A DNA stretch of 64,000 nucleotides. Origin: Dyadobacter sp. Its GTDB lineage: Bacteria; Bacteroidota; Bacteroidia; Cytophagales; Spirosomataceae. The notes below the pieces were generated by a model. That model was not told where the DNA came from. It made no database searches and saw nothing but the letters and a program-made list of their open reading frames with translations. The stretch lies in the NCBI RefSeq assembly GCF_017744695.1, contig NZ_JAGIAS010000002.1, positions 372,001 to 436,000 on the forward strand. Reading direction: 5' to 3'. The position numbers and the translations under genes are program-made. Positions 4,597 through 43,630 of the stretch are shown in pieces (within the stretch, counting starts at the first letter, position 1; every line of letters begins with the position of its first letter).

Positions 4597-6990
4597 ATGT
4601 CAAAAAATCTGGTGATCGTAGAGTCACCGGCGAAGGCCAAAACCATTGAAAGTTACCTTGGGCAGGATTTCACTGTCAAGTCCAGTTTCGGACATGTCCG
4701 TGACCTCCCGGAACACGATATGGGTGTTGATGTTGAGCATGGTTTCCAACCCTCTTACGAAATCTCCTCCGATAAAGTCAAAGTCATTTCAGAGCTCAAA
4801 AAACTGGCGAAAGATGCAGAGGTATGGCTCGCGACCGATGATGACCGCGAGGGAGAAGCTATTTCCTGGCATTTGAAAGAGGCCCTGGGGCTTCCCGACA
4901 ATACCAAGCGGATCGTATTTCGTGAGATTACCAAAACCGCTCTGCGGAATGCCATCGAAAAGCCGCGGACCATCGACACAGCCCTGGTAGACGCCCAACA
5001 GGCACGCCGTATCCTCGACCGCCTCGTGGGTTATGAACTTTCACCGGTACTTTGGAAAAAGATCCGCATCGGAAAATCGAACCTCTCGGCCGGCCGCGTA
5101 CAATCGGTAGCTGTACGTATAATAGTAGAACGAGAAAGGGAAATCGACGCTTTTAAAAGCAAAAGCAGCTTCAAGGTAACGGCGCATTTCGACCTCGGCA
5201 ACGGAAAGGTACTGAATGCGGAGCTGGCCAAAAATTTCCCGACCGAACAGGAAGCCTATCAATTTTTGGAAAAATGCATTGGGGCTGAGTTCTCGATCCG
5301 TAATCTTGAAGTAAAACCTGCTAAAAAAACACCTGCACCGCCATTTACAACTTCTACACTACAACAGGAAGCTTCCCGCAAGCTGAGCTTTTCGGTAGCG
5401 CAGACAATGACCGTCGCACAGCGCCTGTACGAAGCCGGTAAGATTTCCTACATGCGTACCGACTCTACCAACCTGTCGGAAGAAGCGCTTGATAAGTCAA
5501 AGCAGCAGATCACGAAAGAATATGGGGACGAGTATTATAACCGCCGTATATTCAAAACCAAGTCGGAATCGGCGCAGGAGGCGCACGAAGCGATCCGTCC
5601 TACCGATTTCTCTACGCTGGTAGGCAGCAGCGACCGCAACGAGCAGCGTTTGTACGAGCTGATCTGGAAACGTGCCATCGCATCACAGATGTCGGACGCC
5701 CAATTGGAGCGTACCACAGCCACGATCGGCATTTCTACCACCTCGGAAGAGCTGGTAGCGCAAGGTGAAGTGATCAAATTCGAAGGGTTCCTGAAAGTAT
5801 ACCTGGAATCCAGCGATGATGAAGGGGACGAAGAACAAAAAGGAATGCTTCCGCCGCTGAATATCGGTCAGATCCTGAAACTGGCGGACATGAAGGCGAC
5901 AGAAAGATTTACCCGTAACCCACCGCGCTACACCGAGGCGAGTCTGGTAAAAAAACTCGAAGAAATGGGGATCGGACGCCCGTCAACCTACGCGCCGACG
6001 ATCTCGACGATCCTGAAACGGGAGTATATTGTCAAAGAGGACCGTCAGGGTTTTGAAAGGGAATTCAAGGAAATGACCCTTGCCAACGATCAGATCAAAA
6101 GCAAGGTGAATAAAGAAGTTTATGGTTCGGAAAAGGCCAAACTCTTCCCTACCAGCACCGGAATGGTCGTGAACGACTTCCTGGTGAGCCATTTCCAGGA
6201 TATTGTCGATTATTCGTTCACGGCGAGCGTAGAAAAGGATTTTGACCACATTGCCGAAGGCCAACTCGGCTGGCAGCAGATGATCAAGGACTTTTACACG
6301 CCATTCCAGAAGAAAGTCGCCGAAGCACGCGAGGAGGCGATTGACAAGAGCCTTACTTCCCGCGACTTGGGTGAAGATCCGGCAACCGGTAAAAAAGTGT
6401 CGGTACGGATCGGAAAATACGGCCCTTATGTACAGATCGGCGATGTGGAAGATGAAGAGAAGCCGCGTTTTGCGAGCTTGCAGAAAGGCCAACTCATGGA
6501 GACCATTACGCTGGAAGAGGCGTTTGAGCTGTTCAAACTGCCCCGCCAGGTTGGGTTCTTCGAGGACAAAGACATGGTCGTGAACGTCGGCAAATTCGGT
6601 CCGTACGTGAAACACGACGGCAAGTATTACTCGCTGGCTAAAACGGACGATCCGATGGCGGTGACGGAAGAACGCCTGATCGAGATTATCGAGGAAAAGC
6701 GTTTGCAGGACTCCAACCGCACGATCAAGGAATTTGCGGAAGATCCGGAGGCTAAGGTTCTGAATGGACGATACGGGCCTTACATTGCTTTTGGAAAGAA
6801 GAATGTAAAAATCCCGAAAGGCACGGAGCCGGCATCGCTCACATACGACCAGGTATTGAAACTGGCGGCCGAAACGCCGGACAAACCTGCGGGACGCGGG
6901 GCCAAAAAACCTGCCGCAGCGAAAGCCACAACCGCGAAAGCACCCGCAGCCAAGAAGCCTGCTGCTAAGAAAGCGACAAAAAAAGGTTAA
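4597..6990 (+). CDS. topA: DNA topoisomerase I
   Basis: Type IA topoisomerase that relaxes negative supercoils. The start is set at the ATG giving MSKNLVIVESPAKAKTIE (797 residues); the frame is open from 4519 but that part precedes the promoter. The N-terminal TOPRIM domain has ESPAKA and the acidic DDDREGE motif. The catalytic tyrosine is Tyr285 in ISYMRTDSTN. The C-terminus has repeated KFGPYV/RYGPYI modules without zinc-finger cysteines. It ends in a roughly 30-residue Lys/Ala/Pro-rich tail (AAKKPAAKKATKKG), histone H1-like, probably for DNA binding. cobB follows 22 bp later. Confidence 0.97.
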   Translation: MSKNLVIVESPAKAKTIESYLGQDFTVKSSFGHVRDLPEHDMGVDVEHGFQPSYEISSDKVKVISELKKLAKDAEVWLATDDDREGEAISWHLKEALGLPDNTKRIVFREITKTALRNAIEKPRTIDTALVDAQQARRILDRLVGYELSPVLWKKIRIGKSNLSAGRVQSVAVRIIVEREREIDAFKSKSSFKVTAHFDLGNGKVLNAELAKNFPTEQEAYQFLEKCIGAEFSIRNLEVKPAKKTPAPPFTTSTLQQEASRKLSFSVAQTMTVAQRLYEAGKISYMRTDSTNLSEEALDKSKQQITKEYGDEYYNRRIFKTKSESAQEAHEAIRPTDFSTLVGSSDRNEQRLYELIWKRAIASQMSDAQLERTTATIGISTTSEELVAQGEVIKFEGFLKVYLESSDDEGDEEQKGMLPPLNIGQILKLADMKATERFTRNPPRYTEASLVKKLEEMGIGRPSTYAPTISTILKREYIVKEDRQGFEREFKEMTLANDQIKSKVNKEVYGSEKAKLFPTSTGMVVNDFLVSHFQDIVDYSFTASVEKDFDHIAEGQLGWQQMIKDFYTPFQKKVAEAREEAIDKSLTSRDLGEDPATGKKVSVRIGKYGPYVQIGDVEDEEKPRFASLQKGQLMETITLEEAFELFKLPRQVGFFEDKDMVVNVGKFGPYVKHDGKYYSLAKTDDPMAVTEERLIEIIEEKRLQDSNRTIKEFAEDPEAKVLNGRYGPYIAFGKKNVKIPKGTEPASLTYDQVLKLAAETPDKPAGRGAKKPAAAKATTAKAPAAKKPAAKKATKKG

Positions 6991-9923: not shown

Positions 9924-10697
9924 TTACTTTGAAAGCGTATTGAACAATGCCTCGATTTTGGCGAGATCCTTGCTTTTGGAAGTAGTTTCGAGCACCGCCA
10001 CTCCTATCTGATACCATAGACCATCACCGGCGGTAATGTACTTGCCCTTTTTTGAAGGTTTGCTTTCCAATGCATTGTCGGGTACGAATTCAGCTTTGTA
10101 AATCGTATCCATTATTTTTTGCAATTGGCCCCAATCCAGTTTACGGGCCGCTCCTGCGTTCTTGCTTAATGTAAATTCCTTTTTACCAAAAGATGCTTTC
10201 AGGTCGATGGTCGTTTTACTGTCGTTATCGATGTCGATGTAGGTCAGTTCGAACGGCTTTTCACGACCGCCGGTTTCGAAAATAGCCTGCATCATCTCCT
10301 GCAAAAAGTACGACCAACGCTCCTTGTCGACCGGGTAAATCGTCACGCGTTTGTCATTCTCATCGAGTTCTATTTCAATGAAATCTTCAAACTCGCTCTC
10401 TTCGCGCTTGCGAATGATTTTAGAAGATGCCAGAATATCCTGAAACTCATTGATCCAAACCGCAGGCAAACTACCCTTCCATTTGTAATCATCATCCGTA
10501 GAAAAACCTTCGTCAAAGATTTCATCCTCCGTCAGCTCTTCGCGGTCGTTGTAAACAATATCAAAATCCACCCGCAAATCCTGAGCCGATTGAATGTCCA
10601 TTTTCAAAGTATAAAAATGGGCAAACGGCGCCGGCACAACCGGAGCGGTCTGAAAGCGAATAATGTACTGACCTGGTATTTGAAGATTCTTATCCAT
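9924..10697 (-). CDS. Conserved protein of unknown function, coupled to menE
   Basis: 257 residues, acidic, without signal peptide or membrane segment. I do not recognise the family. Acidic patches such as REELTEDEIFDEGFSTDDD and paired Lys/Glu segments suggest a soluble cytoplasmic protein, with a beta-rich N-terminus (GQYIIRFQTAPVVPAPFAHF). Its start lies inside the 3' end of menE (8-bp overlap), so it is probably translated from the same mRNA. Any link to menaquinone synthesis is only inferred from this overlap. Confidence 0.75.
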   Translation of the reverse strand: MDKNLQIPGQYIIRFQTAPVVPAPFAHFYTLKMDIQSAQDLRVDFDIVYNDREELTEDEIFDEGFSTDDDYKWKGSLPAVWINEFQDILASSKIIRKREESEFEDFIEIELDENDKRVTIYPVDKERWSYFLQEMMQAIFETGGREKPFELTYIDIDNDSKTTIDLKASFGKKEFTLSKNAGAARKLDWGQLQKIMDTIYKAEFVPDNALESKPSKKGKYITAGDGLWYQIGVAVLETTSKSKDLAKIEALFNTLSK

Positions 10698-11757
10698 TCG
10701 AAGATTTTAAAAACTGTTGAAATGTGGCGCGTTTGTCGATCTTGTCGGTAGCAGTTTTGGCAAACGCTTTTGCAAAGTAAATATGTTTCGGGTTTTCATA
10801 GGTCGAAACGCGGCTTCTAATTTCAGCGGGAAGCTGCACAGCCTGCTCTGGGCGCAGCGAACTTTCGACTATCAGCACGAGCTTTTGCCCCAGCTTTTCA
10901 TCCGGCTCCCACCAGCAAAAAAATGCATTTGAAATACCCAGATCATGAAAAACCTGTGCAATCCGCTGGTCGGTTTGATCCAGCACAATTTTCACCCCGC
11001 CGGAATTGATCACATTATCCGCCCGCCCGATCCATTGAAATGTGTTCCCTGTTATCTGCACCAGATCATTGGTCTGCACCTTTTGCCCATTGGTAACAGC
11101 CCCGGAAACAAACAGGCATCCGCGCTCGTCCGTACCGAACGAAATACCGGGCAGAAACACATAGGAATCACTCGCCTCCGCTCCATTCAACGCCTTCAAT
11201 GCGACATGAGAAACGGTTTCCGTCATGCCATAGCTTTGGAAAACCGGAACGTTCAGCCCCTTGATCGCCTCTGCCAATGCCAGGTTCACCGGCGCACCGC
11301 CAAGCAGTATTTTGCCCAACCTGCTGACCTGATCAACCGTGGCTGTATTTTCCAGGATCGCCTGCAATTGCATCGGTACCATGGCCACAAAATCGAAATC
11401 TACACTGTCCAGGCCATTCAGCGGGTTGGATGTCGGCTCCGTGACGGTCAGCTCCCACCCTAGTTCCAGCCCGCGAACGAGCATCATCAGCCCGGCAATG
11501 TAGCCCACATTCAGGCATACGAGCGCGCGGGTGCCGCTTCCAAGCGCCAGCGCCTCGCCCGTCATAGCCGCGCTCGCTTCAAGCTGCCTGCGCGTGACGG
11601 TAATGGGCTTGGGCATGCCCGTCGAGCCGGAGGTATGGAGCACAAATTCCCGGTCGCCTTCGAGCCACTTTCCCATAAAGTCGTAAGCCTGTGCGAAATA
11701 GGGATTTCGCGGCCTTTTCTGCGTTTGCCAATGCGTTTTGCCGGTTGTCCAGATCAT
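10690..11757 (-). CDS. menE: o-Succinylbenzoate-CoA ligase (AMP-forming), MenE-like
   Basis: Member of the ANL adenylating superfamily, 355 residues and thus short, as MenE of Bacteroidota is. The P-loop HTSGSTGMPKPITV, the QSYGMTET motif and the WIGRADNVINSGG hinge are present; the C-terminal lysine is in KTATDKIDKR. It is divergent from menB, the next enzyme of menaquinone synthesis (MenE makes OSB-CoA, MenB cyclises it). That neighbourhood makes MenE more likely than another acyl-CoA ligase. The start is ATG giving MIWTTGKTHWQ. Confidence 0.88.
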   Translation of the reverse strand: MIWTTGKTHWQTQKRPRNPYFAQAYDFMGKWLEGDREFVLHTSGSTGMPKPITVTRRQLEASAAMTGEALALGSGTRALVCLNVGYIAGLMMLVRGLELGWELTVTEPTSNPLNGLDSVDFDFVAMVPMQLQAILENTATVDQVSRLGKILLGGAPVNLALAEAIKGLNVPVFQSYGMTETVSHVALKALNGAEASDSYVFLPGISFGTDERGCLFVSGAVTNGQKVQTNDLVQITGNTFQWIGRADNVINSGGVKIVLDQTDQRIAQVFHDLGISNAFFCWWEPDEKLGQKLVLIVESSLRPEQAVQLPAEIRSRVSTYENPKHIYFAKAFAKTATDKIDKRATFQQFLKSSNG

Positions 11758-11835
11758 ACCTGTAATTTCTGCGGATTCATTGTTCCGGGTTACGAATAGC
11801 CCGTTTTTAATGCGGTGGAAAGTTATTCATTTGTT

Positions 11836-11867
11836 TTTGAACCTAACCCAAACAATGAGTAATTTCG
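11836..11867 (+). promoter_or_regulatory. menB promoter (-33/-7)
   Basis: TTTG at 11836-11839, a 20 bp spacer, then TAATTTCG at 11860-11867, one mismatch from TAnnTTTG. It lies in the menE/menB divergent region and predicts a leader of about 70 nt before menB. Confidence 0.55.
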
Positions 11868-11942
11868 CGCATTCGGGCAATACTTAACGGTGACATTTCC
11901 CGCCGGACATTGCCATTTATTCCAATCTTACCAATCTGATTT

Positions 11943-12767
11943 ATGTCCAGTACAGTTCAATGGGAAACCATTAAAGAATACGAAGAAATTCTCTTTACAC
12001 TTCACGAAGGAATTGCCAAAATCAGCATCAACCGCCCGCACAAGCACAACGCATTTACCCCGCTCACGGTAACCGAAATGATCGACGCGATGCACATTTG
12101 CCGCGAGGATCCCCGGATCGACGTCATTATCCTCACCGGCGAAGGCGGTAAGGCATTCTGTTCCGGCGGCGACCAGTCGGTGCGCGGCCATGGCGGCTAC
12201 ATCGGCGACGACCATGTACCGCGTCTGAACGTGCTCGACCTCCAAAAAATGATCCGCTCTATTCCAAAGGCGGTTATCGCCATGGTGGCAGGTTGGGCAA
12301 TCGGTGGCGGGCATGTGCTGCACGTGATCTGCGACCTCTCTATCGCTGCCGATAATGCACGTTTCGGACAAACCGGCCCGAAAGTCGGCAGCTTCGATGG
12401 CGGTTTCGGCGCCTCTTACCTTGCCCGCGTGGTAGGCCAGAAAAAAGCACGCGAAATATGGTTCCTCTGCGACCAGTATGATGCCGACGAAGCATTGCAA
12501 ATGGGCCTTGTGAACAAGGTAGTTCCTTTGGAACAATTGGAAACGGTAACCCTGGAATGGGCTAAGAAAATCCAGGAAAAAAGTCCGCTGTCGATCCGTA
12601 TGCTCAAAAGCGCATTCAATGCGGAGCTTGACGGACAAGCCGGTATCCAGGAACTCGCGGGTAATGCGACATTGCTTTATTATCTCAGCGAGGAAGCCAA
12701 AGAAGGCCAGCGTTCGTTTTTGGAAAAAAGAAAGCCGGATTTCAGCAAATTCCCGAAATTCCCTTGA
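11943..12767 (+). CDS. menB: 1,4-Dihydroxy-2-naphthoyl-CoA synthase
   Basis: Crotonase-fold enzyme of 274 residues that converts OSB-CoA to DHNA-CoA in menaquinone synthesis. It shows the MenB-specific [14 protein letters not shown], the oxyanion-hole segment [17 protein letters not shown], and the active-site region [20 protein letters not shown]. Length and motifs are typical. Its start follows a divergent promoter shared with the menE side. Confidence 0.97.
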
Positions 12768-33029: not shown

Positions 33030-34235
33030 TCAAATCTTAAGTTTTACACCAACCCTGTTGATCGCCCCGGTAAGCAAAATGACCAGCAATGAAAAACAGG
33101 CGGATTTCACAAGGCCGATCAATCCGGTGCGCAGAAACATGGGGAGGCTGATGCCGGCCAGGGTGATAACGGCGTACCATATATAAGGAATCAGGTAGCA
33201 GGTGAGTGTAGCCGTTCCGGCAGGGCTGATGATGTTCGCCCATTTTTTAATCTTTTTCAGATCAACCAGCCAGAACAGGAATGCAAACGCCAAAAAGCTG
33301 ATACCCGAACAAATGCCCACCCAAGCCGGCGTAGCCCTGATTTTTGAAATACCCCAAAATGGCCGGGTGCCGACGCCATATGCCAAACATATCAATCCCA
33401 AAACAACGAGCATCACGAGATACGTGCTACCCACTGCATTTCGGCTGACACTATTCCGGTAAATCACCGAAGCAACAACACCCCCCATCACAAAAGCCGG
33501 CATCGACCCGCTGCCTACAATCCAGACAAACTTTCTGACCGGATCGAGAAAGTCCAGTGCACCCGCATAGTCGGCCAGATTGAACAGGACAAAAAACAAC
33601 CATCCACCGATCGCCCACGAGAGTCGGTCACGCGTAGGCAGATACGCGAGCGAACCGAGCAGGTACGACCAGCCGATGAGGCCCAATATCCCGTACCAGT
33701 GCGTTCCCATCCAGGATGGATTCCCGGCGTCGCCACCTTTGTAAATTACTGCCAACGCCACCAATAGCAGGTAGCCCGCTATCTTCAATGCATTATAAAA
33801 TCCTTTCTTCTCCGGGGACTGAGGGTAAACATTCCATATGAGAAAAAAAGCAATCACCATGCCGATTTCCCAGATGTACTTATTGACCACCATCGCGTCG
33901 CCCGCAATATTTTCGTAGTTCACGATGAATACGCCCATGAGCAGCAACGCAAATGTACGCTCCGTAATATGCCTGATAATCAATGCATCAGAATCCCCCT
34001 TCTTCTTGCGATTAGCGATAGCGAAGGGAATCGAAAGGCCGACAATAAACAAGAATCCGGGGAATACGACGTCCGAAAGACCCATTGCATCTTCGGCCGC
34101 TTTACTGTGTTTCAACCAATCGGGAACGTCTTCCAGCGTCCAAAGGTCATTGACGAAAATCATTAAAAACATGGTGACCGCCCTGAATACGTCGATCGAA
34201 TCCAGGCGGAGCGAGGGGGAGGAAATTTTGTTCAT
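33030..34235 (-). CDS. DUF5009 / heparan-alpha-glucosaminide N-acetyltransferase-like membrane protein
   Basis: 401 residues from the ATG (MNKISSPSLRLDSIDVFRAV). An in-frame start 25 codons upstream adds a basic stretch not typical of the family. About ten hydrophobic segments are seen. The N-terminal RLDSIDVFRAVTMFLMIFVN and the following SDVVFPGFLFIVGLSIPFA are typical of the DUF5009/YeiB-like acyltransferases, which move acyl groups across the membrane. It is divergent from the SWIM operon. Confidence 0.87.
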   Translation of the reverse strand: MNKISSPSLRLDSIDVFRAVTMFLMIFVNDLWTLEDVPDWLKHSKAAEDAMGLSDVVFPGFLFIVGLSIPFAIANRKKKGDSDALIIRHITERTFALLLMGVFIVNYENIAGDAMVVNKYIWEIGMVIAFFLIWNVYPQSPEKKGFYNALKIAGYLLLVALAVIYKGGDAGNPSWMGTHWYGILGLIGWSYLLGSLAYLPTRDRLSWAIGGWLFFVLFNLADYAGALDFLDPVRKFVWIVGSGSMPAFVMGGVVASVIYRNSVSRNAVGSTYLVMLVVLGLICLAYGVGTRPFWGISKIRATPAWVGICSGISFLAFAFLFWLVDLKKIKKWANIISPAGTATLTCYLIPYIWYAVITLAGISLPMFLRTGLIGLVKSACFSLLVILLTGAINRVGVKLKI

Positions 34236-34338
34236 CAGAAGGTTTGGTTTAGGAAGACCTAATATAATCGATTTTCGCCTCCGGATAGCATATGAGGAGC
34301 ATTTGCTCATTTACCTGAATTTTATTCCCCGCAATTTC

Positions 34339-34346
34339 TATTTTTG
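34339..34346 (+). promoter_or_regulatory. -7 box of the SWIM-MoxR-VWA operon
   Basis: TATTTTTG matches TAnnTTTG exactly and lies 26 bp upstream of the first ATG. A good -33 TTTG at the right spacing is not seen. It suggests a short leader of about 20 nt for the five-gene operon. Confidence 0.45.
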
Positions 34347-34372
34347 ACTTTCCGATTAAAGAGATCATTTTA

Positions 34373-35686
34373 ATGCAATATACCCGCGAACAGATTCTTC
34401 AACTCGCACCCGACAGTGCTTCTGCGAAGGCAGGCCTGCAATTAGCCACTCATCACAAATGGGTTACCAGGGCTTGTAACGACGTGGCAATCTGGGGCGA
34501 ATGCCACGGCAGTGGTAAAAATCCCTATCAGACCGCCATCGACCTGACTAACATTGCGTTCAAATGCAACTGTCCCAGCCGGAAGTTTCCCTGTAAACAC
34601 GGTTTGGGATTGTTTTTACTTTTTTCCGAAGATCGTACCGCATTTACCACTGGTGAAGAATTACCGGCTTATGTTACGGAATGGCTTTCGAAACGACAGG
34701 CACGGGAGACAGCCCGCGAAACGACACAAGAAAAACCTGTGGACGAAACCGCCCGTATCAAACGCGCGGAGTCGCGGGAAAAGAAGGTGAATGGTGGTAT
34801 TGAAGAAATACGTGCCTGGCTGGGTGATGTTATACGCGCGGGCATTGCGCACATACCTCAGCAGGCCTACCAATTTCACAGCAACATTACCGCCCGGATG
34901 GTAGATGCACAAGCGGGTGGGCTCGCTAGCCAGCTGCGTCAAATCAACGAAATCAACTTTTTCAACGATGGCTGGCAAAAACAGCTGTTGAAAAAACTAT
35001 CAGGTATTTATATGATATCGGAGGGATATCTTAATCGTGATACGCTGCCAGCCGGGACTGCCCGGGACATATCCACGCTGATCGGCTGGACGATTTCCAA
35101 GGAAGAAGTTTCACAAACAGAGCCCGTTACCGATAACTGGATTGTCTTGTCGGTAACCATGACCGAGGAAAGCAATGTAACTACGGAGCGAATATGGCTG
35201 TACGGCCTGAGAACTAAACAGTTTGCCCTGTTATTGAATTTTTACGCCGGAAACCAGCCGTATCAGACAATACTCGTTCCGGGTTTGCAAATAGATGCCG
35301 ATATCGTGTATTACCCCGCCTCCGTCCCCATGCGTGCGCTCATTCGCGAGCAACGTCCTGTGACCGATCGCTCGATGCATGCAAATATACCCAACTCATT
35401 TTCAATCATATACAATAACATCTCGGATACATTAAGCCGTAACCCGTTTATAGAGCAGATACCATTTATGATCGAAGATGTGAAAGCCACGCTCACGAGC
35501 GACCGTTGGTTCGTGACCGACCTGGAAGGGTTAAGCGTTCCGATATCGAATCCCGAAGACGAATGCTGGAATATGCTTGCATTTTCCGGTGGGCGCCGGT
35601 TTTCAACCTTCGGTGTTTGTGATCAGGGCCAATTCGATTTACATTTCATCTCCGCGGCCCGGCAGGGCATTTTCCTTAAATCATGA
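34373..35686 (+). CDS. SWIM zinc-finger protein, first gene of the MoxR/VWA operon
   Basis: 437 residues. The SWIM motif CxC-x6-CxH is complete: Cys65, Cys67, Cys74 and His76 in FKCNCPSRKFPCKHGLGL. SWIM modules bind zinc and serve in DNA or protein contacts. A basic/acidic helical linker (residues 100-150) follows, then a mixed region of about 280 residues with no recognised domain. The stop overlaps the DUF5691 start in ATGA, indicating translational coupling. The wider role is inferred from the operon: it may recruit a target for the AAA/VWA pair. Confidence 0.9.
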   Translation: MQYTREQILQLAPDSASAKAGLQLATHHKWVTRACNDVAIWGECHGSGKNPYQTAIDLTNIAFKCNCPSRKFPCKHGLGLFLLFSEDRTAFTTGEELPAYVTEWLSKRQARETARETTQEKPVDETARIKRAESREKKVNGGIEEIRAWLGDVIRAGIAHIPQQAYQFHSNITARMVDAQAGGLASQLRQINEINFFNDGWQKQLLKKLSGIYMISEGYLNRDTLPAGTARDISTLIGWTISKEEVSQTEPVTDNWIVLSVTMTEESNVTTERIWLYGLRTKQFALLLNFYAGNQPYQTILVPGLQIDADIVYYPASVPMRALIREQRPVTDRSMHANIPNSFSIIYNNISDTLSRNPFIEQIPFMIEDVKATLTSDRWFVTDLEGLSVPISNPEDECWNMLAFSGGRRFSTFGVCDQGQFDLHFISAARQGIFLKS

Positions 35687-37146
35687 ATACAGAAATATTG
35701 AAGGCGGCATTGCTGGGCACCGACAGGTACATCCCCGAAATACCGAAAGGAGCGCCGGAGATTTATACCAAGATAGATGCATTGCCGACAAGCAAGGAAG
35801 ACCGCTTTCTGAAGATGGCATTTGTGTCGTTACTTTACGAAGAGGCTGGTGCCAAACCACTTGTCATAGATTCGCAATTACCGGAATGCCCGCCCGAACC
35901 GCAGGCGATCGTCACCAGTCAGCTCGCTGCCTTGGTGCAATCAGCCATCGCAGATCAGAATGAGGTCTTATTCGCATTTCTGGTGTTCAGGATTGCGCAA
36001 CGGAACGAAGTGATTCAGGCACAACTTGTTCCCGGCATTCTCGACAAGGCACTTGAAAAAAAGTATGACAAACAAAAGCTAATCCGTATTTGTGGGAAGA
36101 CCGGCGAATGGCTTTGCGGCCTGAATCCGCGTTGGAAAGTTTTGCGGGACGGTACGACCGAAGATGAGAATGTTTGGGACATCGGGTCGATAGAAAGCAG
36201 AAAAGGGTTCCTTTCCGCGTTGCGCAAAAAAGACCCCGGTGCAGCCATTATACTGCTGGAAAGTACATTCACCCAGGAAAATGCCAACAACCGGCTGGCA
36301 TTTTTGCAATTACTGCACGACGGGCTGTCGCTCTCGGACGAACCTTTTCTTCAAAAACTGATCACTGACAAAAGTCAGAAAGTACGGGAAGTCGCTATTG
36401 GATTGCTTCGGCAGATTCAGGGCTCGGCCATCAATCGCTATCATCTCGAATGTCTGCGCCGGATGATAGAGGTTCGTGAAGAAAGGCATTTGCTGGTTAC
36501 AAAGAAAAAGAAGCTTGTTATTGCTGAGGACGTGACGTTCGAAGAAAACATCTTTAAAACAGGTATTGAAAAGGTAAGTGCTGAAAAAGGCGTTCAGGAC
36601 CATGTATTCATCGCAGGGCAGCTGCTTTCGTTGGCGGATCCGGTAGAACTATCTAATATGCTGAATATAAGCGAACAAAGCTTAATTACATTATTCCTAG
36701 ACCACCCCGCGGCTAAGGTGCTGCTACCGTTCCTCACCTCTTCGGCCATTCGGTTCAAATGTAAATCCTGGGCGCTGGCGCTGCTGCACCGCGGGGATGC
36801 ACGCGACATCGGGTTACTGGATGCGCTGGAAGAGTCAGAGCGATTGCCGTTTTACCTGCAATTTTTAAACGGTAATGCCGCTAACCTGTTTGCATATCTG
36901 CTGAACGACGCCTATTCGCTCCTACCCGCGCGGCTGGCCGAACAATTGCTCGACCACCTCTCAAAGTTCCCTTACCACATCAACCAGGGAACCTACCAAC
37001 GCCTTGGATTGCAGCTACCTGACAGCACAATGCCCATTCTGAAAAAATATGCCGACGATCCCCGGCAGGACTACCCATTTAGATATTTTAAAAACCAGGT
37101 ATTAGAAATGATGCGCTTGGTCGAACTAAGAAAAAAAATTGCTTAA
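35683..37146 (+). CDS. DUF5691-family protein
   Basis: 487 residues, no signal peptide, mostly helical with HEAT/ARM-like stretches (KVREVAIGLLRQIQGSAINRY in part). The N-terminal KAALLGTDRYIPEIP and the internal RICGKTGEWLCGLNPRWKVL are the pattern I associate with DUF5691, a family seen with SWIM and MoxR genes. Function unknown; a solenoid scaffold is plausible. It overlaps the SWIM gene by 4 bp and is followed by the ATPase after 4 bp. Confidence 0.85.
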   Translation: MNTEILKAALLGTDRYIPEIPKGAPEIYTKIDALPTSKEDRFLKMAFVSLLYEEAGAKPLVIDSQLPECPPEPQAIVTSQLAALVQSAIADQNEVLFAFLVFRIAQRNEVIQAQLVPGILDKALEKKYDKQKLIRICGKTGEWLCGLNPRWKVLRDGTTEDENVWDIGSIESRKGFLSALRKKDPGAAIILLESTFTQENANNRLAFLQLLHDGLSLSDEPFLQKLITDKSQKVREVAIGLLRQIQGSAINRYHLECLRRMIEVREERHLLVTKKKKLVIAEDVTFEENIFKTGIEKVSAEKGVQDHVFIAGQLLSLADPVELSNMLNISEQSLITLFLDHPAAKVLLPFLTSSAIRFKCKSWALALLHRGDARDIGLLDALEESERLPFYLQFLNGNAANLFAYLLNDAYSLLPARLAEQLLDHLSKFPYHINQGTYQRLGLQLPDSTMPILKKYADDPRQDYPFRYFKNQVLEMMRLVELRKKIA

Positions 37147-37150
37147 AAAC

Positions 37151-38233
37151 ATGTCACAAAATATTTTACGACAGACCGCCGAAGCGCAGTTCGCGCAGGA
37201 AATCGAGGAGATAAAAAAACAAGACAAACACGCACGGCCCGAAAACTGGTTACTATCGCCACATGCGGTGGTAACATACCTCATGGGCGGAAAGCTAGCT
37301 AATGGATTTCATGTATCGCCCAAATACATCGGCAACCGCAGGCTCATGGAAATCGCCGTGGCAACCCTCACTACGGATCGTGCGCTGTTGCTGTACGGTT
37401 TGCCGGGAACAGCCAAATCCTGGGTTTCCGAGCACATAAGTGCAGCCATTTCGGAAGACTCCGGTCTTGTGATCCAGGGAACTGCCGGTACCAGTGAAGA
37501 ATCCGTGCGGTATGGCTGGAACTATGCACAACTGCTTTCCGCCGGGCCCGTACCCGAGGCCATTGTCGAAACGCCTGTGATGCGGGGAATGAAAGAAGGC
37601 AAAATTGTGCGTGTGGAAGAGCTTACGCGCATCGGCTCGGATGTGCAGGATAGCCTCATCACCATTCTTTCCGAAAAGATGCTCCCGATTCCGGAGCTGA
37701 ATACCAAGGTGATGGCAGTTCGCGGTTTCAATATCATTGCTACCGCCAACAACCGCGACAAGGGTGTCAATGACTTGTCGAGTGCATTGAAGCGCAGGTT
37801 CAATACAGTAATTTTACCAGTACCGGAGACAGTCGAAGAAGAAGTGGAAATCGTGCAGCAGCGAGTTGCGAGTTTCAGCAAATCGATCGATCTGGCTATT
37901 GAAAAACCAATTTTGGAAGAGATCAGCCGCGTCGTCACAGTCTTCCGCGAGTTGCGCAGCGGAGTTTCCGCTGACGGCAAGACAAAGCTCAAATCCCCTT
38001 CCGGCACATTGAGCACAGCGGAGGCTATATCGGTGATGAACAGCGGGTTATCGCTGGCTTACCATTTCGGCGACGCAAGCCTGAAAGCCGATGATCTGGC
38101 AAGCGGACTTATCGGCGCGATCATCAAAGATCCGATACAGGACAAGATCGTATTCCAGGAATATATGGAAACCGTGCTCAAACAACGCGATGGTTGGAAA
38201 GATATTTACAGGGCTTGCAGGGAAATAATCTGA
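37151..38233 (+). CDS. MoxR-family AAA+ ATPase
   Basis: 360 residues from the ATG (a TTG 4 codons earlier overlaps DUF5691). The Walker A is GLPGTAKS (residues 83-90), the Walker B region KIVRVEELTRI, sensor 1 IIATANNRDKG, and the arginine finger in SSALKRRFN. MoxR ATPases form hexamers that, with a VWA partner, insert cofactors or remodel protein complexes. The VWA partner is the last gene of this operon. The second acidic residue of Walker B is Glu as needed for hydrolysis. Confidence 0.95.
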   Translation: MSQNILRQTAEAQFAQEIEEIKKQDKHARPENWLLSPHAVVTYLMGGKLANGFHVSPKYIGNRRLMEIAVATLTTDRALLLYGLPGTAKSWVSEHISAAISEDSGLVIQGTAGTSEESVRYGWNYAQLLSAGPVPEAIVETPVMRGMKEGKIVRVEELTRIGSDVQDSLITILSEKMLPIPELNTKVMAVRGFNIIATANNRDKGVNDLSSALKRRFNTVILPVPETVEEEVEIVQQRVASFSKSIDLAIEKPILEEISRVVTVFRELRSGVSADGKTKLKSPSGTLSTAEAISVMNSGLSLAYHFGDASLKADDLASGLIGAIIKDPIQDKIVFQEYMETVLKQRDGWKDIYRACREII

Positions 38234-38243
38234 CCAGAATTCT

Positions 38244-40442
38244 ATGTCCGTTCATCTTTTAGGGGTCAGGCACCACGGCCCCGGCTCGTCACGGCATGTG
38301 CTGAATGCATTGGCGGAAATTCAGCCGGATATCGTCCTGATCGAAGGCCCGCCCGAAGGCGAAGCCATGCTGTCGTGGGCGACGCACGCGGATATGCAGC
38401 CGCCGGTAGCGCTGTTGGCCTACGTCCCCGACAATCCCCAACAGGCCGTATTCTATCCTTTTACCGTTCACAGCCCGGAATGGAATTCCATCCTGTACGC
38501 GCTACGGAACCAAATTCCCGTGCGTTTCATCGACATGCCGCTGGCACACGGTTTTGCGATGGAATGGCAGGAAACCTCGCTAAACAGCAAAAAGTCCGAA
38601 CTCACGGAGCATGTACGGAAAAACCCTATCTCTTACCTGGCCGAAATAGCGGGTTTCGATGATCCGGAAGAATGGTGGGAACATCGTTTCGAGATCGTAC
38701 AGCAGCCCTACGAAGTTTTCGAGGCGATCGCGGAAAGTATGACAGCCCTCCGGCAAACCTTACCAGCCGACGACCGCCGGGAGGAAATTCGGGAAGCATT
38801 TATGCGAAAATCGATTCGCATTGCGCAGAAAGAAGGTTTTGAAAGAATAGCAGTGATCTGTGGCGCCTGGCATGTACCGGCGCTGGCACATTTGCCAAAA
38901 CAACGGGAAGATGACGCGCTGTTGAAAAATCTTCCTAAAACCAAAGTAGAAAGCACCTGGATTCCCTGGACAAACGACCGGATGGCGTTTGAAAGCGGTT
39001 ATGGAGCCGGCGTGGAATCGCCGGGTTGGTATATGCACCATTGGAAGCATCCCGACGACCACGGTACTTTGTGGCTTTCACATACCGCGCATGTATTTCG
39101 CGAGAACCATGTCGATATCTCCTCAGCGCACATCATTGAGGCGGTAAGATTGGCCGGTGCATTGGCGGGCTTGCGAAATCTGTCGCGCCCCGGCCTGAAA
39201 GAGCTCAACGAGGCCACAGTAGCAGTGATGTGCATGGGTGAGCCCGTACTGATGAAAGTCATTTACCGGGAACTGATTGTCGGTAAGGCCTTCGGGCAAA
39301 TACCCGAAGGAACCCCGCAGGTACCGCTCCAACGCGACCTGGAAATGCTTGCCAAGCGATTCAGGATCAAGGTAGTGCCGGAACAAAAAACATTGAAGCT
39401 GGATTTGCGGGAAGAAAATGATCTGCAAAAGAGCATTTTGCTGCACCGTTTGCAACTCCTCGATATTAACTGGGGTACCATGGAAACCGTCAGCGGAAAA
39501 GGCACATTCAAAGAAGAATGGACGCTCCGCTGGTACCCCGAACTGACGATCAAACTCCTGGAAAAAGCTCCATGGGGCAATACCATTGAAGAAGCCGCCA
39601 CAAAATACCTCAAAAGTACCGCTGGGAAATGTGCGCGACTGGATGAGATCACGCCGCTGGTGCAAAATGCGATTCCAGCCGACTTACCGGTGGCGCTCGG
39701 CGCCGTCATGCAAAAAATGGATGAGCTGGCAGCAACGACCTCTGATATTTCCATGCTGATGGACGCATTCGCGCCGCTCGCGCAGGTGAGTCGGTACGGT
39801 AATGTGCGCAAGACCGATCGTGAAAGCATCGACCTGATCGTGACAACCATCTTCTATCGGATTATTGCAGGCTTGCCGGCTGGTTGCACCGGCATCGACG
39901 ATGAACAGGCTGCAGTGATGACCGACAAGATCAAGGATGTTAACCAGGCAATTTTAATGCTTGAAAAACAGGATCTGACGGAAGGCTGGACAACAACACT
40001 CGAAACGATATTTCATTCCGACCGCTCGGCGCCATTTATCCAGGGGTATTGTTGCAAGGCATTGTATGACAACCGCCTGCTCGACATGGACAGCACTTTC
40101 AATGCATTTTCAAAAGCATTATCACTTAACAATGAGCCATCGGCTTCTGCCAACTGGCTGGAAGGCTTTTTGAACGACGCCGCCACCGTGTTGATCCTGG
40201 ACGACGTGATCTGGGGCGTAGTAAATGACTGGCTGCTGTCGCTGAACGACGAGACATTTCTACAAGTGGTACCATTACTACGGCGCACCTTCGCCAATTT
40301 CAGCAATGTGGAAAAACGAAAAATCGCTGGGCGCGCAAAGCAGGGCCAATCCGGAAAATTAATCCCCCAAATAATCGACATCGATCCTCAAAGAGCTGCG
40401 CAGGTGTTTCCGATACTTGAGTTGCTTATGGCTATTAAATAG
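38244..40442 (+). CDS. DUF5682-family protein, possible EreA/TraB-like hydrolase
   Basis: 732 residues, no signal peptide. The N-terminus has LLGVRHHGPGS (His10, His11), then DIVLIEGPPEGE (Glu34), and VICGAWHVPAL (Gly207, His210). This order of His-Glu-GxxH recalls the EreA/ChaN/TraB hydrolase group, so the first 300 residues may be a metal- or His-based hydrolase; this is inference. The remainder is largely helical. It follows the ATPase after 10 bp and precedes the VWA gene by 7 bp. Confidence 0.85.
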   Translation: MSVHLLGVRHHGPGSSRHVLNALAEIQPDIVLIEGPPEGEAMLSWATHADMQPPVALLAYVPDNPQQAVFYPFTVHSPEWNSILYALRNQIPVRFIDMPLAHGFAMEWQETSLNSKKSELTEHVRKNPISYLAEIAGFDDPEEWWEHRFEIVQQPYEVFEAIAESMTALRQTLPADDRREEIREAFMRKSIRIAQKEGFERIAVICGAWHVPALAHLPKQREDDALLKNLPKTKVESTWIPWTNDRMAFESGYGAGVESPGWYMHHWKHPDDHGTLWLSHTAHVFRENHVDISSAHIIEAVRLAGALAGLRNLSRPGLKELNEATVAVMCMGEPVLMKVIYRELIVGKAFGQIPEGTPQVPLQRDLEMLAKRFRIKVVPEQKTLKLDLREENDLQKSILLHRLQLLDINWGTMETVSGKGTFKEEWTLRWYPELTIKLLEKAPWGNTIEEAATKYLKSTAGKCARLDEITPLVQNAIPADLPVALGAVMQKMDELAATTSDISMLMDAFAPLAQVSRYGNVRKTDRESIDLIVTTIFYRIIAGLPAGCTGIDDEQAAVMTDKIKDVNQAILMLEKQDLTEGWTTTLETIFHSDRSAPFIQGYCCKALYDNRLLDMDSTFNAFSKALSLNNEPSASANWLEGFLNDAATVLILDDVIWGVVNDWLLSLNDETFLQVVPLLRRTFANFSNVEKRKIAGRAKQGQSGKLIPQIIDIDPQRAAQVFPILELLMAIK

Positions 40443-40449
40443 AAATGAG

Positions 40450-41580
40450 ATGAATGAAAATGCTGTAAAAAGGTGGCGGCTTGTACTAGGCAAAGAAACT
40501 CAGGACGAATTGGAATACACGTTCACCAGAGAAGAGTCCGGGATTGACCGGACGTTGGAAGCGCTTTACAATTCGGACAGGAAGGGAGGGTTGGGTGCTT
40601 CGTCACCCAATGTGTCCCGGTGGCTCGGCGATATCCGCGAGTACTTCCCGACATCGATTGTGAAGATCATGCAGCAGGACGCATTGAAACGGCTGAAATT
40701 AACTTCCATGCTCACCGAGCCCGAAATGCTCGAAACCATTGTGCCGGATATCCAGCTCGTTGCCAATCTTATGACATTGGGCAAACTCATTCCTGAAAAA
40801 ACCAAAGCGACGGCTCGCGAGGTGATCCGGAAGGTTGTCGACCAGCTGATGCAGAAACTCGCCGGTCCCACACAGCAGGCCATAACCGGAAGCCTCAACC
40901 GCGCGGTGCGAAACATCCGGCCACGTCATAACGAGATCAACTGGAATGAAACGATACGCAAAAACCTGAAACACTATCAACCAGATTATCAGACAATTAT
41001 ACCCGAAGTAAAAATAGGTTATGGTAGGAAGAGAAAGGCATTGAAGGACGTAGTTTTATGCATCGACCAGAGCGGCTCGATGGGAACATCGGTGATCTAC
41101 TCAGGTATTTTTGGCTCCGTCATGGCGTCTATGCCGGCAGTAAACACCAAAATGGTTGTATTTGATACGTCCGTAGCCGACCTGACAGAAGAGCTTAACG
41201 ATCCGGTCGATCTGCTGTTTGGCGTGCAACTGGGAGGCGGTACAGATATTCACAAGGCGCTTAGCTACTGTCAGCAACTGGTTACCCGTCCGCTCGATAC
41301 GGTGCTGGTGCTCATTAGTGACTTGTACGAAGGTGGCAATGAAATTGAAATGCGTAAAAAAGTGGCGCAGTTGGTTGATACGGGTGTCCAGATAGTCACT
41401 TTGTTGGCGCTCAACGACGAAGGAGCGCCTTTTTACGATCACAAAAATGCCGAATTCTTTGCCGGTCTCGGAATACCAGTCTTCGCCTGCACGCCCGACC
41501 AGTTCCCCGACCTGATGGCTGCCGCATTGAGTAAGCAGGATATTGCCGCATGGGCAGGTAAAAATGATATCAAACTCTGA
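40450..41580 (+). CDS. VWA-domain protein, partner of the MoxR ATPase
   Basis: 376 residues from the ATG (MNENAVKRWRLVLGKETQDE); the open frame starts earlier inside DUF5682. The N-terminal 190 residues are helical. The C-terminal VWA domain has the complete MIDAS site DQSGSMG (Asp206, Ser208, Ser210), a Thr in GGGTDIHKAL, and Asp in LISDLYEGG. MIDAS metal binding mediates ligand contact, as in ViaA, CbbO and NorD, which work with MoxR ATPases. It ends the operon, convergent to a serine hydrolase gene with an 18-bp gap. Confidence 0.94.
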   Translation: MNENAVKRWRLVLGKETQDELEYTFTREESGIDRTLEALYNSDRKGGLGASSPNVSRWLGDIREYFPTSIVKIMQQDALKRLKLTSMLTEPEMLETIVPDIQLVANLMTLGKLIPEKTKATAREVIRKVVDQLMQKLAGPTQQAITGSLNRAVRNIRPRHNEINWNETIRKNLKHYQPDYQTIIPEVKIGYGRKRKALKDVVLCIDQSGSMGTSVIYSGIFGSVMASMPAVNTKMVVFDTSVADLTEELNDPVDLLFGVQLGGGTDIHKALSYCQQLVTRPLDTVLVLISDLYEGGNEIEMRKKVAQLVDTGVQIVTLLALNDEGAPFYDHKNAEFFAGLGIPVFACTPDQFPDLMAAALSKQDIAAWAGKNDIKL

Positions 41581-41598: not shown

Positions 41599-42852
41599 TC
41601 AAGGCTGATAATTCATCTGAAATTTAGACAGGTCCGCCTTGTATTTCTTCTGCCTGCCCATTTCATATTCATAAATTAAATGCCCCAGGTTTTTCATGAA
41701 CGGATAGCAAACCTCCTTGTATTCGTACCGATCATCGTTGTAAACACCATCCTCGTTGGATTGCACGACGGCGCTCAGCATAAACTCAATATGGTTCTCA
41801 AAATCAACGATATAGGCATTGTCGATAATAAATCCATATGAGTCGCCATATTTGTTGAAGATCCTCATTCCTCTTTGCGGAACGGTCTCTTTGTCTGCGC
41901 CGTAGAACAGGAACTTTGCATAAAGCGACCAATATTCTGCCGGGTTGTAACGTGGAAAATCGCTTTCGTTCGGCAGCTTGCTCATGTAGGTGTAAATCAG
42001 CTTGTAATCGTCCTGTGCAAGGTGAAAGCGCTCATTTTCAGGAAAAGCTTCCGGAAAGAGCAGCTTCTTCATGACCTTCTGCTGGTCGGTCAAACTGAAA
42101 GCATTTTTGTTGGCCATATTGAACGGCCTTTCCACGAGCCGGTCCGAGCTGTCCATATAAGCCCTGCCCATGGAAGTATTCGTTAAGTTCAATGGGTAAT
42201 CCTTTGGATCAAACTGTCCGGGCTGGCTGTAAAGCAGCTTCGCGCCGTCATAAAAACTTACCGGATTGGTATGCCTTGAAGTTTCCTCCGTGTCTTTCAC
42301 CGCATACCGGTTGAGAATGCGGCTGGTAGTGAGTCCGTTTCTCCGAAGCCGCTCGTTAATTTCCGCCCGCCCGATCCATTCATAGAGCCGGTTGTAAGCA
42401 TCGTTGTCGCTTACGAGCAATATCTTTTTAATATAATGCCCAATGGAAGGAAGTCCGGTTGCCGCAGAACTATCGCGCTCGACGCTGGTTTGTTTATGAA
42501 AATCAGCGCCGGTGATCATCGTGCTGGCGCGGCTCAGGCCGGGTATTTTCAGCTCATTCAATTTCTCCAATGCAAAAATCACCGTCGGTAGCTTCACCGT
42601 GCTTGCAGGAAAAAAATAGTGCAGATCGTCAAGATTATAGCTGTAACTTTTAAAGTGCGGGACATTGTTCACGTCCCGGTCAATCTGGGTGTATAGTATC
42701 TGGACCTGATTCTTTTGCGGATGATTCAGAATTTTGCCAAACAGCTCCGGCCGGCTTCTAAGCAGTTTTTCAACCAAAACCGTGTCAGGGCGCTGGCCAA
42801 AAGCAGCCTGACTTACCAAAATCATCAAAAGCAAAAGTCTAGGCATACACAA
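41599..42852 (-). CDS. Serine hydrolase with class A beta-lactamase-like fold, exported
   Basis: 417 residues with a signal peptide (MCMPRLLLLMILVSQAAFG; the second ATG two codons later is also possible). The active-site set is SxxK (Ser84-Thr-Val-Lys87 in FPASTVKLP), SDN (Ser148-Asp-Asn150), and NKYGDSYG in place of KTG. The core therefore resembles class A beta-lactamase, but Tyr replaces the Ser/Thr of the third box and there are long insertions. Probably a periplasmic hydrolase of unknown substrate; a role in antibiotic resistance is not shown. The signal is bacterial type I. Confidence 0.85.
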   Translation of the reverse strand: MCMPRLLLLMILVSQAAFGQRPDTVLVEKLLRSRPELFGKILNHPQKNQVQILYTQIDRDVNNVPHFKSYSYNLDDLHYFFPASTVKLPTVIFALEKLNELKIPGLSRASTMITGADFHKQTSVERDSSAATGLPSIGHYIKKILLVSDNDAYNRLYEWIGRAEINERLRRNGLTTSRILNRYAVKDTEETSRHTNPVSFYDGAKLLYSQPGQFDPKDYPLNLTNTSMGRAYMDSSDRLVERPFNMANKNAFSLTDQQKVMKKLLFPEAFPENERFHLAQDDYKLIYTYMSKLPNESDFPRYNPAEYWSLYAKFLFYGADKETVPQRGMRIFNKYGDSYGFIIDNAYIVDFENHIEFMLSAVVQSNEDGVYNDDRYEYKEVCYPFMKNLGHLIYEYEMGRQKKYKADLSKFQMNYQP

Positions 42853-42883: not shown

Positions 42884-43630
42884 TCATTCATCCCAATCAT
42901 CCACATAAGATCCCTCCTCCGTTTTAGTCGAATGCTCCACGGCTTCATTGATTTCCTTCATCTCCTCGGCGGTGAGGTTCCGCCATTTGCCAACCGGTAA
43001 ATCGTTCAATGCCACATTCATGATCCGGACGCGTTTCAGTTTCGTTACATTATAGCCCAGGTACTCGCACATGCGGCGTATCTGGCGATTGAGCCCCTGC
43101 GTCAGAATAATGGTGAACACAAAACTACTTTCCTTCCGGACAAAGCACTTTTTGGTAACAATCCCCAAAATAGGTACGCCCGATGACATTTTCTGGATAA
43201 AATCGGGGGTAATGGGTTTGTTCACGGTTACCACATATTCCTTTTCGTGGTTATTCCCGGCGCGAAGGATTTTGTTTACAATATCCCCATCGCTGGTGAG
43301 GAATATCAGCCCTTCCGAAGGCTTGTCGAGCCGCCCGATGGGAAAAATACGCTCCTTATGGCGAATATAATCGATGATATTGCCCTTAATGTGGCGCTCG
43401 GTGGTGCAGGTAATGCCCACCGGTTTGTTGAATGCGATGTATACACCTGCTTTTTTCGCTTTGAGCGGTTTCCCGTCAACGCGCACGTCATCGCCTTCCG
43501 TTGCTTTATCACCCAAAACCGCCTTCCGGCCGTTGAGTGTCACGCGGCCCTGCTCCACGAGTTTGTCGGCCTCACGCCGCGAACAAAACCCGGTTTCACT
43601 GATAAACTTATTGATCCTGACTGGCTCCAA
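42884..43630 (-). CDS. rluF: 23S rRNA pseudouridine synthase, RluF-like
   Basis: 248 residues: N-terminal S4 domain ([20 protein letters not shown]) and the RsuA/RluB/E/F catalytic domain with Asp102 in [10 protein letters not shown]. The segment [18 protein letters not shown] and [12 protein letters not shown] match RluF closely, which makes U2604 and U2605 of 23S rRNA in E. coli. The C-terminal 30 residues are acidic and not conserved. It converges with no close partner; the serine hydrolase gene follows after 31 bp. Confidence 0.9.

Follow-up and report, generated by a model that had tools for sequence, protein, structure and literature searches.

A widespread five-gene MoxR-VWA cassette in Dyadobacter sp. 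with a DUF5682 protein related to the TraB/TIKI family

Introduction

What might a MoxR ATPase and a VWA protein do when they are encoded together with a SWIM zinc-finger protein, a DUF5691 protein and a DUF5682 protein? Such a cassette occupies positions 34373-41580 of a 64,000-nucleotide stretch of Dyadobacter sp. DNA (the window; positions 372,001-436,000 of contig NZ_JAGIAS010000002.1, assembly GCF_017744695.1, from a genome of 7.8 Mb). A first-pass annotation of these letters had proposed it as an undescribed system. That proposal was not upheld, since the YehL subfamily of MoxR ATPases, the E. coli genes yehLMPQ and the Deinococcus genes ddrTUVWX are on record, without an assigned function. 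What is new here is the TraB/TIKI-type assignment of DUF5682 with its invariant residues, and the linking of the cassette to yehLMPQ and ddrTUVWX. The reading that we tentatively prefer, with confidence somewhat short of even, is a stress- or DNA-damage-linked MoxR-VWA machine that would control a TIKI-like hydrolase.

Results

The five genes form a conserved unit

The cassette consists of SWIM, DUF5691, MoxR, DUF5682 and VWA genes, with the following features:

34373..35686, plus strand: SWIM zinc-finger protein, 437 amino acids (aa), with a predicted tandem OB-like C-terminal half (Pfam, model, alignment)
34565-34600, plus strand: SWIM finger CxCx6CxH (alignment)
35683..37146, plus strand: DUF5691 protein, 487 aa, with a weak HEAT-repeat match (Pfam)
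37151..38233, plus strand: MoxR AAA+ ATPase of YehL type, 360 aa (Pfam, alignment)
about 37397-37420 and about 37616-37621, plus strand: MoxR Walker A and Walker B (Glu-Glu) (alignment)
38244..40442, plus strand: DUF5682 protein, 732 aa, with an N-terminal alpha/beta domain (TraB/PrgY/GumN type) and then a mainly helical region
38271..38873, plus strand: putative DUF5682 active-site residues His10 (38271), Glu34 (38343), Arg183 (38790) and His210 (38871) (invariance, TraB register)
40450..41580, plus strand: CoxE-type VWA protein, 376 aa (Pfam, alignment)
about 41065-41079, about 41242 and about 41320, plus strand: DxSxS, Thr and Asp of the VWA metal-ion-dependent adhesion site (MIDAS) (alignment)

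The five same-strand genes with spacings of -4, +4, +10 and +7 bp, as first annotated, were confirmed by open reading frame (ORF) coordinates and Pfam. The SWIM stop (35686) overlaps the DUF5691 ATG (35683), and the stops of DUF5691 (37146), MoxR (38233) and DUF5682 (40442) are followed by the ATGs of MoxR (37151), DUF5682 (38244) and VWA (40450). For MoxR and VWA, the ORF list has longer frames, which begin at upstream TTG codons. Pfam E values were 1.5e-72 for DUF5691, 5.9e-252 for DUF5682, 5.4e-33 for AAA_5 and 2.5e-47 for VWA_CoxE, and the SWIM match (E 0.0012, 18.8 bits) fell slightly below its 19.6-bit cut-off.

Scanning bacterial and archaeal genomes with a profile gave at least 593 pattern stretches and at least 569 relatives, and the best 80 of the relatives were kept as survey loci, a set biased towards close relatives of the window. 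Custom models of the five families were applied to these loci, and those with at least 4.3 kb upstream and at least 1.2 kb downstream of DUF5682 were treated as evaluable (n = 66). All five genes were found in the order SWIM-DUF5691-MoxR-DUF5682-VWA on one strand in 60 of the 66 evaluable loci and in 63 of the 80 survey loci, so the arrangement is not due to chance. The six evaluable exceptions were DUF5682 alone (L047, L067 and L076), DUF5682-VWA (L056), a locus without SWIM (L086) and a locus without SWIM and DUF5691 (L088). Judged by record titles, complete survey loci span Bacteroidota, Cyanobacteria, Planctomycetota, Chloroflexota, Acidobacteria, Verrucomicrobia, Actinomycetota and Pseudomonadota, and the closest named relative among the best 80 was Dyadobacter jiangsuensis (83% DUF5682 identity). 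The order is also kept in Deinococcus taeanensis, Nonomuraea, Methylobacterium, Methylosinus and Rhizobium, with the VWA frame of the Methylosinus locus and the SWIM frame of the Rhizobium locus in pieces; a Fusobacterium locus showed SWIM, MoxR, DUF5682 and VWA and no DUF5691 match. Conserved order and strand thus support the earlier view of five coupled genes around a MoxR-VWA pair, and the wide co-occurrence of the five families that it put forward is borne out too. The five genes form a real, widespread unit.

In the window's phylum, 198 genomes were searched; seven had DUF5682 and eight had DUF5691 (E<=0.001), and all seven were within the eight (hypergeometric 3.8e-12, a value that ignores shared ancestry); at the curated cut-off, DUF5691 was found in six, all within the seven with DUF5682. 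Two genomes of this phylum (G055 and G196) carry the two families on separate contigs with few or no partners close by, and a relative in the same taxonomic order (G013) has DUF5682 without other cassette genes within 19.5 kb. DUF5682 was also present in 17 of 198 genomes of Amycolatopsis's phylum, some with two or three copies.

Several loci showed individual peculiarities. Second or third DUF5682 copies in large Actinomycetota genomes (L227-L232, L234, L235) lie in open frames of 1189-1645 aa. Hymenobacter sp. HDW8 has SWIM and DUF5691 fused into one 1009-aa protein (L008:3189-6218) and an extra 203-aa ORF without a Pfam match in the MoxR/DUF5682 interval (L008:7368-7979). The DUF5682 gene of Hymenobacter radiodurans (L024:8986-11278) is annotated as three overlapping pieces and therefore looks broken or mis-sequenced.

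The DUF5682 N-domain aligns with the TraB/PrgY/GumN family at profile level

The DUF5682 model (mean predicted local distance difference test score, pLDDT, 88.4) has an alpha/beta domain at about residues 1-250 and mostly helices beyond. His10, Glu34, Asp97, Arg183, Glu184, Met187 and His210 are invariant in 89 of 89 alignment rows, E. coli included, and His11 is kept in 87. TIKI-type is used here as the label for the TraB/PrgY/GumN family (PF01963), whose relatives include metal-dependent peptidases. A profile built from 135 N-domain sequences (102 after filtering) was compared by hhalign with a TraB/PrgY/GumN profile (52 sequences), which gave a probability of 75.5, P 2.4e-5 and a score of 41.8. 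The alignment is colinear over columns 3-222, and the motifs of the two families (GxxH, Glu, Arg, GxxH) are in register. Control scores were 16.0 for the best of 60 column-shuffled decoys, 21.7 for the reversed family and at most 20.1 for four unrelated families. With 14 TraB sequences, an earlier and shallower comparison gave a weak result (P 0.0038), and only deeper alignments gave a clear signal. The Pfam scan of the window protein did not report TraB.

At profile level, then, the DUF5682 N-domain belongs with the TraB/PrgY/GumN family. The hydrolase-like signatures noted in the first annotation are supported in this more specific, TraB/TIKI-type form by the profile match and by the His/Glu/Arg/His set kept in 89/89 rows. 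DUF5682 is probably a metal-dependent hydrolase and possibly a peptidase.

The MoxR ATPase is of YehL type, and the MoxR-VWA pair evolves slowly

MoxR has an intact Walker A in 79 of 80 rows with letters (81 rows in total), and the Walker B pair is Glu-Glu, and the sensor-1 Asn kept, in 80 of 80. To the annotation's intact Walker motifs this makes one amendment, Walker B being Glu-Glu and not Asp-Glu throughout. E. coli YehL also has Glu-Glu at this position, and RavA has Asp-Glu. The window MoxR aligns with YehL at 36.5% identity over 362 aa (E 5.6e-74) and with RavA at 24.8% over 109 aa (E 0.002); by a comparison that covered those two, it is nearer YehL and is placed in the YehL subfamily. 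VWA carries DxSxS in 79 of 79 rows with letters (80 in total) and a full MIDAS in 76 of these, with Asn for Thr in the remaining three, in line with the intact MIDAS first reported. In these motifs (Walker A 79/80, MIDAS 76/79), the pair matches MoxR-VWA chaperones of the NorQD and RavA-ViaA type. Sequence searches against solved structures matched MoxR to midasin and returned nothing useful for DUF5682, SWIM, DUF5691 or VWA.

These data bear on one alternative, a general stress or respiration-linked complex like RavA-ViaA in which DUF5682 would be non-enzymatic. E. coli has RavA-ViaA as its other MoxR-VWA pair (PMC3893208), but the window MoxR is far from RavA, and a non-enzymatic DUF5682 would not be expected to keep its TraB-register residues invariant. 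We regard this reading as very unlikely.

Evolutionary rates were taken from an alignment of 66 rows, window included, with all five proteins full-length. Mean pairwise identity was 0.72 for MoxR, 0.63 for VWA, 0.46 for DUF5682, 0.39 for SWIM and 0.25 for DUF5691, the least conserved member. Distance correlations between the five proteins were 0.70-0.92, highest for SWIM-DUF5682 (0.92), and largely reflect shared ancestry. The ratio of nonsynonymous to synonymous rates (dN/dS) between the window and a same-genus genome (G010) was 0.02 for MoxR and VWA, 0.07 for DUF5682, 0.10 for SWIM and 0.12 for DUF5691, with dS near saturation; eight flanking genes gave 0.01-0.09. Purifying selection seems to act on all five genes. 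From these identities and ratios, MoxR-VWA is the slow part and the presumed recognition parts, SWIM and DUF5691, are faster. Positive selection on the fast genes was considered and not seen (dN/dS <=0.12, dS near saturation).

SWIM and DUF5691 are candidate recognition proteins

WGR and SWIM are nucleic-acid-related domains. The CxCx6CxH ligands of the SWIM finger are kept in 70 of 70 rows with letters (72 in total), and the SWIM model has a mean pLDDT of 91.6. Its top Foldseek matches were the baculovirus single-stranded-DNA-binding protein LEF-3, HIN-200 DNA sensors and then eIF5A, with unrelated proteins lower in the list, so the SWIM protein weakly resembles tandem-OB nucleic-acid binders in its predicted structure. 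Two further relationships were tried and set aside: DUF5691 gave no signal as a DUF4132 relative (P 0.14), and the SWIM proteins of the window and E. coli forms had only the finger in common (22 columns, P 0.0042; n=3 on the YehQ side).

A second architecture includes E. coli yehLMPQ

Two architectures exist, the window form (type A) and a WGR/DUF4132 form like that of E. coli. E. coli K-12 has yehL (MoxR), yehM (DUF5682), yehP (VWA) and yehQ (SWIM), which adjoin yehF (WGR), the pseudogene yehH and yehI (DUF4132). Matches to yehM were found in 5284 of 5426 E. coli genomes, 5166 of them with at least 80% covered in one place, and 5289 of the 5291 places were chromosomal. With MoxR-DUF5682-VWA in order on one strand and a SWIM protein, the five-gene set of the window classes as a YehL-type cassette.

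The second form is found outside E. coli as well. Among 299 genomes of Massilia frigida's phylum, DUF5682 was present in 12, by score six with the window form, eight with YehM-like genes and two with both. MoxR lies directly upstream of all eight YehM-like genes, and DUF4132 and VWA lie near seven; the eighth ends at a contig edge. When extra families in at least four loci with a median distance below 100 bp were sought in the 80 survey loci and 8 others, DUF4132 alone was returned (8/80 survey loci, plus E. coli). The window's genome gave no DUF4132 match.

The YehL subfamily of MoxR is listed in PMC3893208 and PMC11432383, yehQ and yehM appear as mutated genes in butanol and copper studies, and a paper on microgravity names yehP. 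Searches of open-licence literature found no mention of DUF5682 or DUF5691 and, by yeh gene names, no study of the cassette's function among the papers listed.

Eight Bacteroidota loci, mostly from Chitinophaga and relatives (L029, L030, L032, L033, L038, L039, L046, L083), have DUF4132 beside or among the cassette genes and thereby bridge the two architectures. Massilia frigida (L132, L133; G216:C99:64001-104000) has about eight tandem WGR/DUF4132 genes or fragments that run into a YehM-type MoxR-DUF5682-VWA-SWIM set, and its genome also carries a type A cassette. The conjugative IncF plasmid NZ_CP103756.1 of E. coli (L007) carries yehI, a MoxR-DUF5682-VWA-SWIM set, btsSR and mlrA, a stretch of E. 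coli chromosome type near an IS26-family transposase gene.

A Deinococcus operon of matching outline is radiation-induced

In D. deserti, ddrTUVWX (Deide_18730 to Deide_18690) is a five-gene operon with SWIM first and a CoxE-like VWA last; it is radiation-induced, IrrE-dependent and preceded by a radiation/desiccation response motif (RDRM) (PMC5552922). Its SWIM gene falls in the class induced more than 10-fold by radiation in an IrrE-dependent manner, and the VWA gene and two conserved genes fall in the more than 5-fold class; Deide_18700 is not named in the main text, and Table 4 of the paper, as we read it, places operon and motif in 4 of 7 species (PMC5552922). The D. taeanensis locus (L022) carries an RDRM-like 17-mer with one mismatch at 4744-4760, about 20 bp before the SWIM start. 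This was the sole match in the 20,229 bases of the locus, against 0 in 100 shuffles, for a pattern that was written after inspecting that stretch and so was not blind.

DUF4132 and WGR proteins are partners in the E. coli-type architecture, and PMC8533742 describes D. radiodurans DRA0165-DRA0166 (DUF4132) and DR2173 (WGR) as rising on DdrO depletion, with RDRM-like sites. Because the Deinococcus operon that matches in outline is radiation-induced, the damage link is supported. The first annotation had suggested sensing of damage or invasion; the damage half gains from this operon, and the invasion half was not borne out (0/5 convincing PADLOC matches, below).

LexA-type boxes upstream of the cassette were considered and rejected, as they were not clearly enriched (0-1 of 66 loci per motif). 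The Massilia DUF4132 array has two CTGTN8ACAG sites 1.6 kb in front of it, and L138 contains one.

The damage link also bears on the possibility of a maturation chaperone, in which MoxR-VWA with SWIM/DUF5691 adaptors would metallate or assemble a DUF5682 client for a metabolic job, as NorQ-NorD and CoxD-CoxE do. Well-characterised MoxR-VWA pairs mature metalloenzymes (PMC9976466, PMC7159879), the window VWA is of CoxE type, and in each of the 60 evaluable loci with all five genes, DUF5682 is flanked by MoxR and VWA. This account has difficulty with the SWIM protein, with WGR/DUF4132 as alternative partners and with the radiation induction in Deinococcus, and the DUF5682 genes of L047, L067 and L076 have no other cassette gene in the examined stretch. 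We consider it rather unlikely.

The cassette is gained or lost between relatives

Two features border the cassette:

34311..34372, no strand: 62-bp divergent intergenic region, left edge of the presence/absence unit and presumed promoter (relatives' comparison)
41599..42852, minus strand: Beta-lactamase2-family gene adjoining the cassette (Pfam)

The cassette is a presence/absence unit between relatives. A same-genus genome without a DUF5682 match (G002) has the flanking genes adjacent, with about 40 bp between tblastn matches, and G010 has the five genes at the window's site without the Beta-lactamase2 gene. This gene was excluded from the unit because it is not beside the cassette in G010; found at the corresponding site in neither G010 nor G002, it represents a separate gain or loss. 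The cassette sits elsewhere in the genome in G001, G006 and G012. In G008 (L173) and G012 (L179), the same two flanking genes, homologues of 33030-34310 and 42884-43630, enclose about 3 and about 5 kb of other DNA, which suggests that the cassette's site is a variable one.

Such patchiness, together with plasmid copies, could fit an anti-phage function in which SWIM and DUF5691 would act as sensors of foreign nucleic acid or proteins, MoxR-VWA would set the threshold and DUF5682 would be a toxic effector. MoxR-vWA ternary conflict systems are a published theme (PMC7159879), and SWIM and DUF5691 diverge faster (mean identity 39% and 25%, against 72% for MoxR). Some neighbours match defence families, with Hhe and PDC-S37 each found in 3 of 110 genes (best E 1e-227 and 0) and single strong matches to Orf5 and HEC-06. 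In all, the 110 nearest neighbours, which come from 62 loci, gave matches to 36 PADLOC families at 1e-10, no family in more than 3 genes; 110 control genes, drawn from the window's genome alone, gave 19 families with 1 gene each (families counted, not distinct genes). The cassette proteins themselves gave no convincing PADLOC match (0/5), with weak IetA matches to the ATPase only (E 1.5e-4 and 1.1e-3). Purifying selection on all five genes (dN/dS 0.02-0.12), the presence of yehM in 5284/5426 E. coli genomes with 5289/5291 places chromosomal, and the absence of a confirmed relative in viral contigs, where one pattern was used, likewise speak against such a function. A phage-defence role is not supported, and we judge it unlikely. 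A DUF5682 relative occurs at 10647-12758 of MT835988.1, an unannotated 14-kb faecal 'Bacteriophage sp.' record that may be a bacterial contig.

Discussion

We propose that the five genes encode one ATP-driven machine. Its engine would be the YehL-type MoxR ring with the VWA partner; by analogy with characterised MoxR-VWA pairs, the MIDAS would grip a partner that ATP hydrolysis remodels, and in a published model the VWA finger enters the MoxR pore while the MIDAS binds the client (PMC9976466). DUF5682 would be the enzyme: a hydrolase of TraB/TIKI type that probably depends on a metal and is joined to a helical region. SWIM, with its zinc finger and tandem OB-like half, and the helical DUF5691 may do the recognising, and the trigger or target that they recognise is most likely nucleic acid or a nucleic-acid-bound protein; in the E. 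coli form, WGR/DUF4132 proteins would take this task. The engine would then switch or feed the DUF5682 hydrolase. The role in the cell may be a stress response, for which DNA damage is the best-supported trigger.

Several results weigh against this proposal. DUF5682 is patchy even within the genus (4 of 12 other genomes searched). A Foldseek search of the PDB with the full DUF5682 model gave no match at E<=0.001, and its top 50 rows were helical-repeat and designed helical proteins, so the TraB fold was not confirmed by structure; membership of DUF5682 in the EreA (erythromycin-esterase) family was also tried and gave no signal (hhalign P 0.18), with the first motif in register. The SWIM matches were weak (best E 1.7e-3, none at E<=0.001, template modelling score about 0.2). 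The correspondence with ddrTUVWX is one of outline, drawn from gene number, end products, genus and the D. taeanensis site. As to regulation, the RDRM pattern had 0 matches in the window, three LexA-type patterns, all applied to the 350 bp upstream of all 66 loci, hit 0, 1 and 1 loci against a background of 0.2, 0.5 and 0.7, and the 27-kb E. coli yeh region has no exact CTGTN8ACAG.

In one bolder version, the cassette would do in bacteria what the p97-SPRTN pathway does for DNA-protein crosslinks, in the sequence detect, pull, cut. The SWIM/OB protein, or WGR/DUF4132 in the E. coli form, would find a protein stuck on damaged DNA, the MoxR-VWA ring would pull on it and the DUF5682 TIKI-type peptidase would cut. 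We think this quite improbable; if true, a protease guided by DNA and fed by ATP would be new in kind.

The damage-linked hydrolase machine that we prefer would, if the link holds, add a step of ATP-driven remodelling and hydrolysis to the bacterial DNA-damage response. One gene order is kept from Bacteroidota to Cyanobacteria, Chloroflexota, Actinomycetota and Deinococcota, and the second form is present in nearly every E. coli examined. With three uncharacterised gene sets linked and a putative TraB/TIKI-type active site assigned to DUF5682, a single question is left that can be put to an enzymatic test in a laboratory strain.

Comparison with known systems

The closest described sets are those of Deinococcus and E. 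coli. Like the window, ddrTUVWX has five genes with SWIM first and a CoxE-like VWA last; it differs in the IrrE/DdrO control found in Deinococcus, there being no RDRM match in the window. The D. taeanensis locus matches the cassette in its five families and their order and carries the RDRM-like site as well; it differs in an extra 78-aa ORF in the MoxR/DUF5682 interval. E. coli yehLMPQ shares the MoxR-DUF5682-VWA core in the same order and a SWIM protein, at identities of 36.5% for YehL (362 aa), 33.4% for YehP (365 aa) and 27.2% for YehM (508 aa). In contrast to the window, no DUF5691 was found there, the SWIM gene is last and similar only at the finger, and WGR and DUF4132 genes adjoin.

MoxR-vWA ternary conflict systems (VMAP, iSTAND, beta-propeller; PMC7159879) also combine a MoxR-vWA pair with extra components. 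They differ in that Pfam (E<=0.1) found no VMAP, iSTAND or beta-propeller in the cassette's five proteins and no effector domain on its VWA protein, and the bpMoxR score is below the cut-off; the main text of PMC7159879 does not mention SWIM, YehL, TraB, WGR or DUF4132. With the TraB/PrgY/GumN family (PF01963), DUF5682 shares the colinear profile alignment and in-register motifs, and it is distinguished by its added long helical region and its tie to MoxR-VWA. NorQ-NorD, CoxD-CoxE and RavA-ViaA each pair a MoxR ATPase with a MIDAS-bearing VWA partner, as the cassette does, whereas the cassette has a Glu-Glu Walker B (Asp-Glu in RavA, the one member of these for which subfamily distance was compared) and three extra conserved partners.

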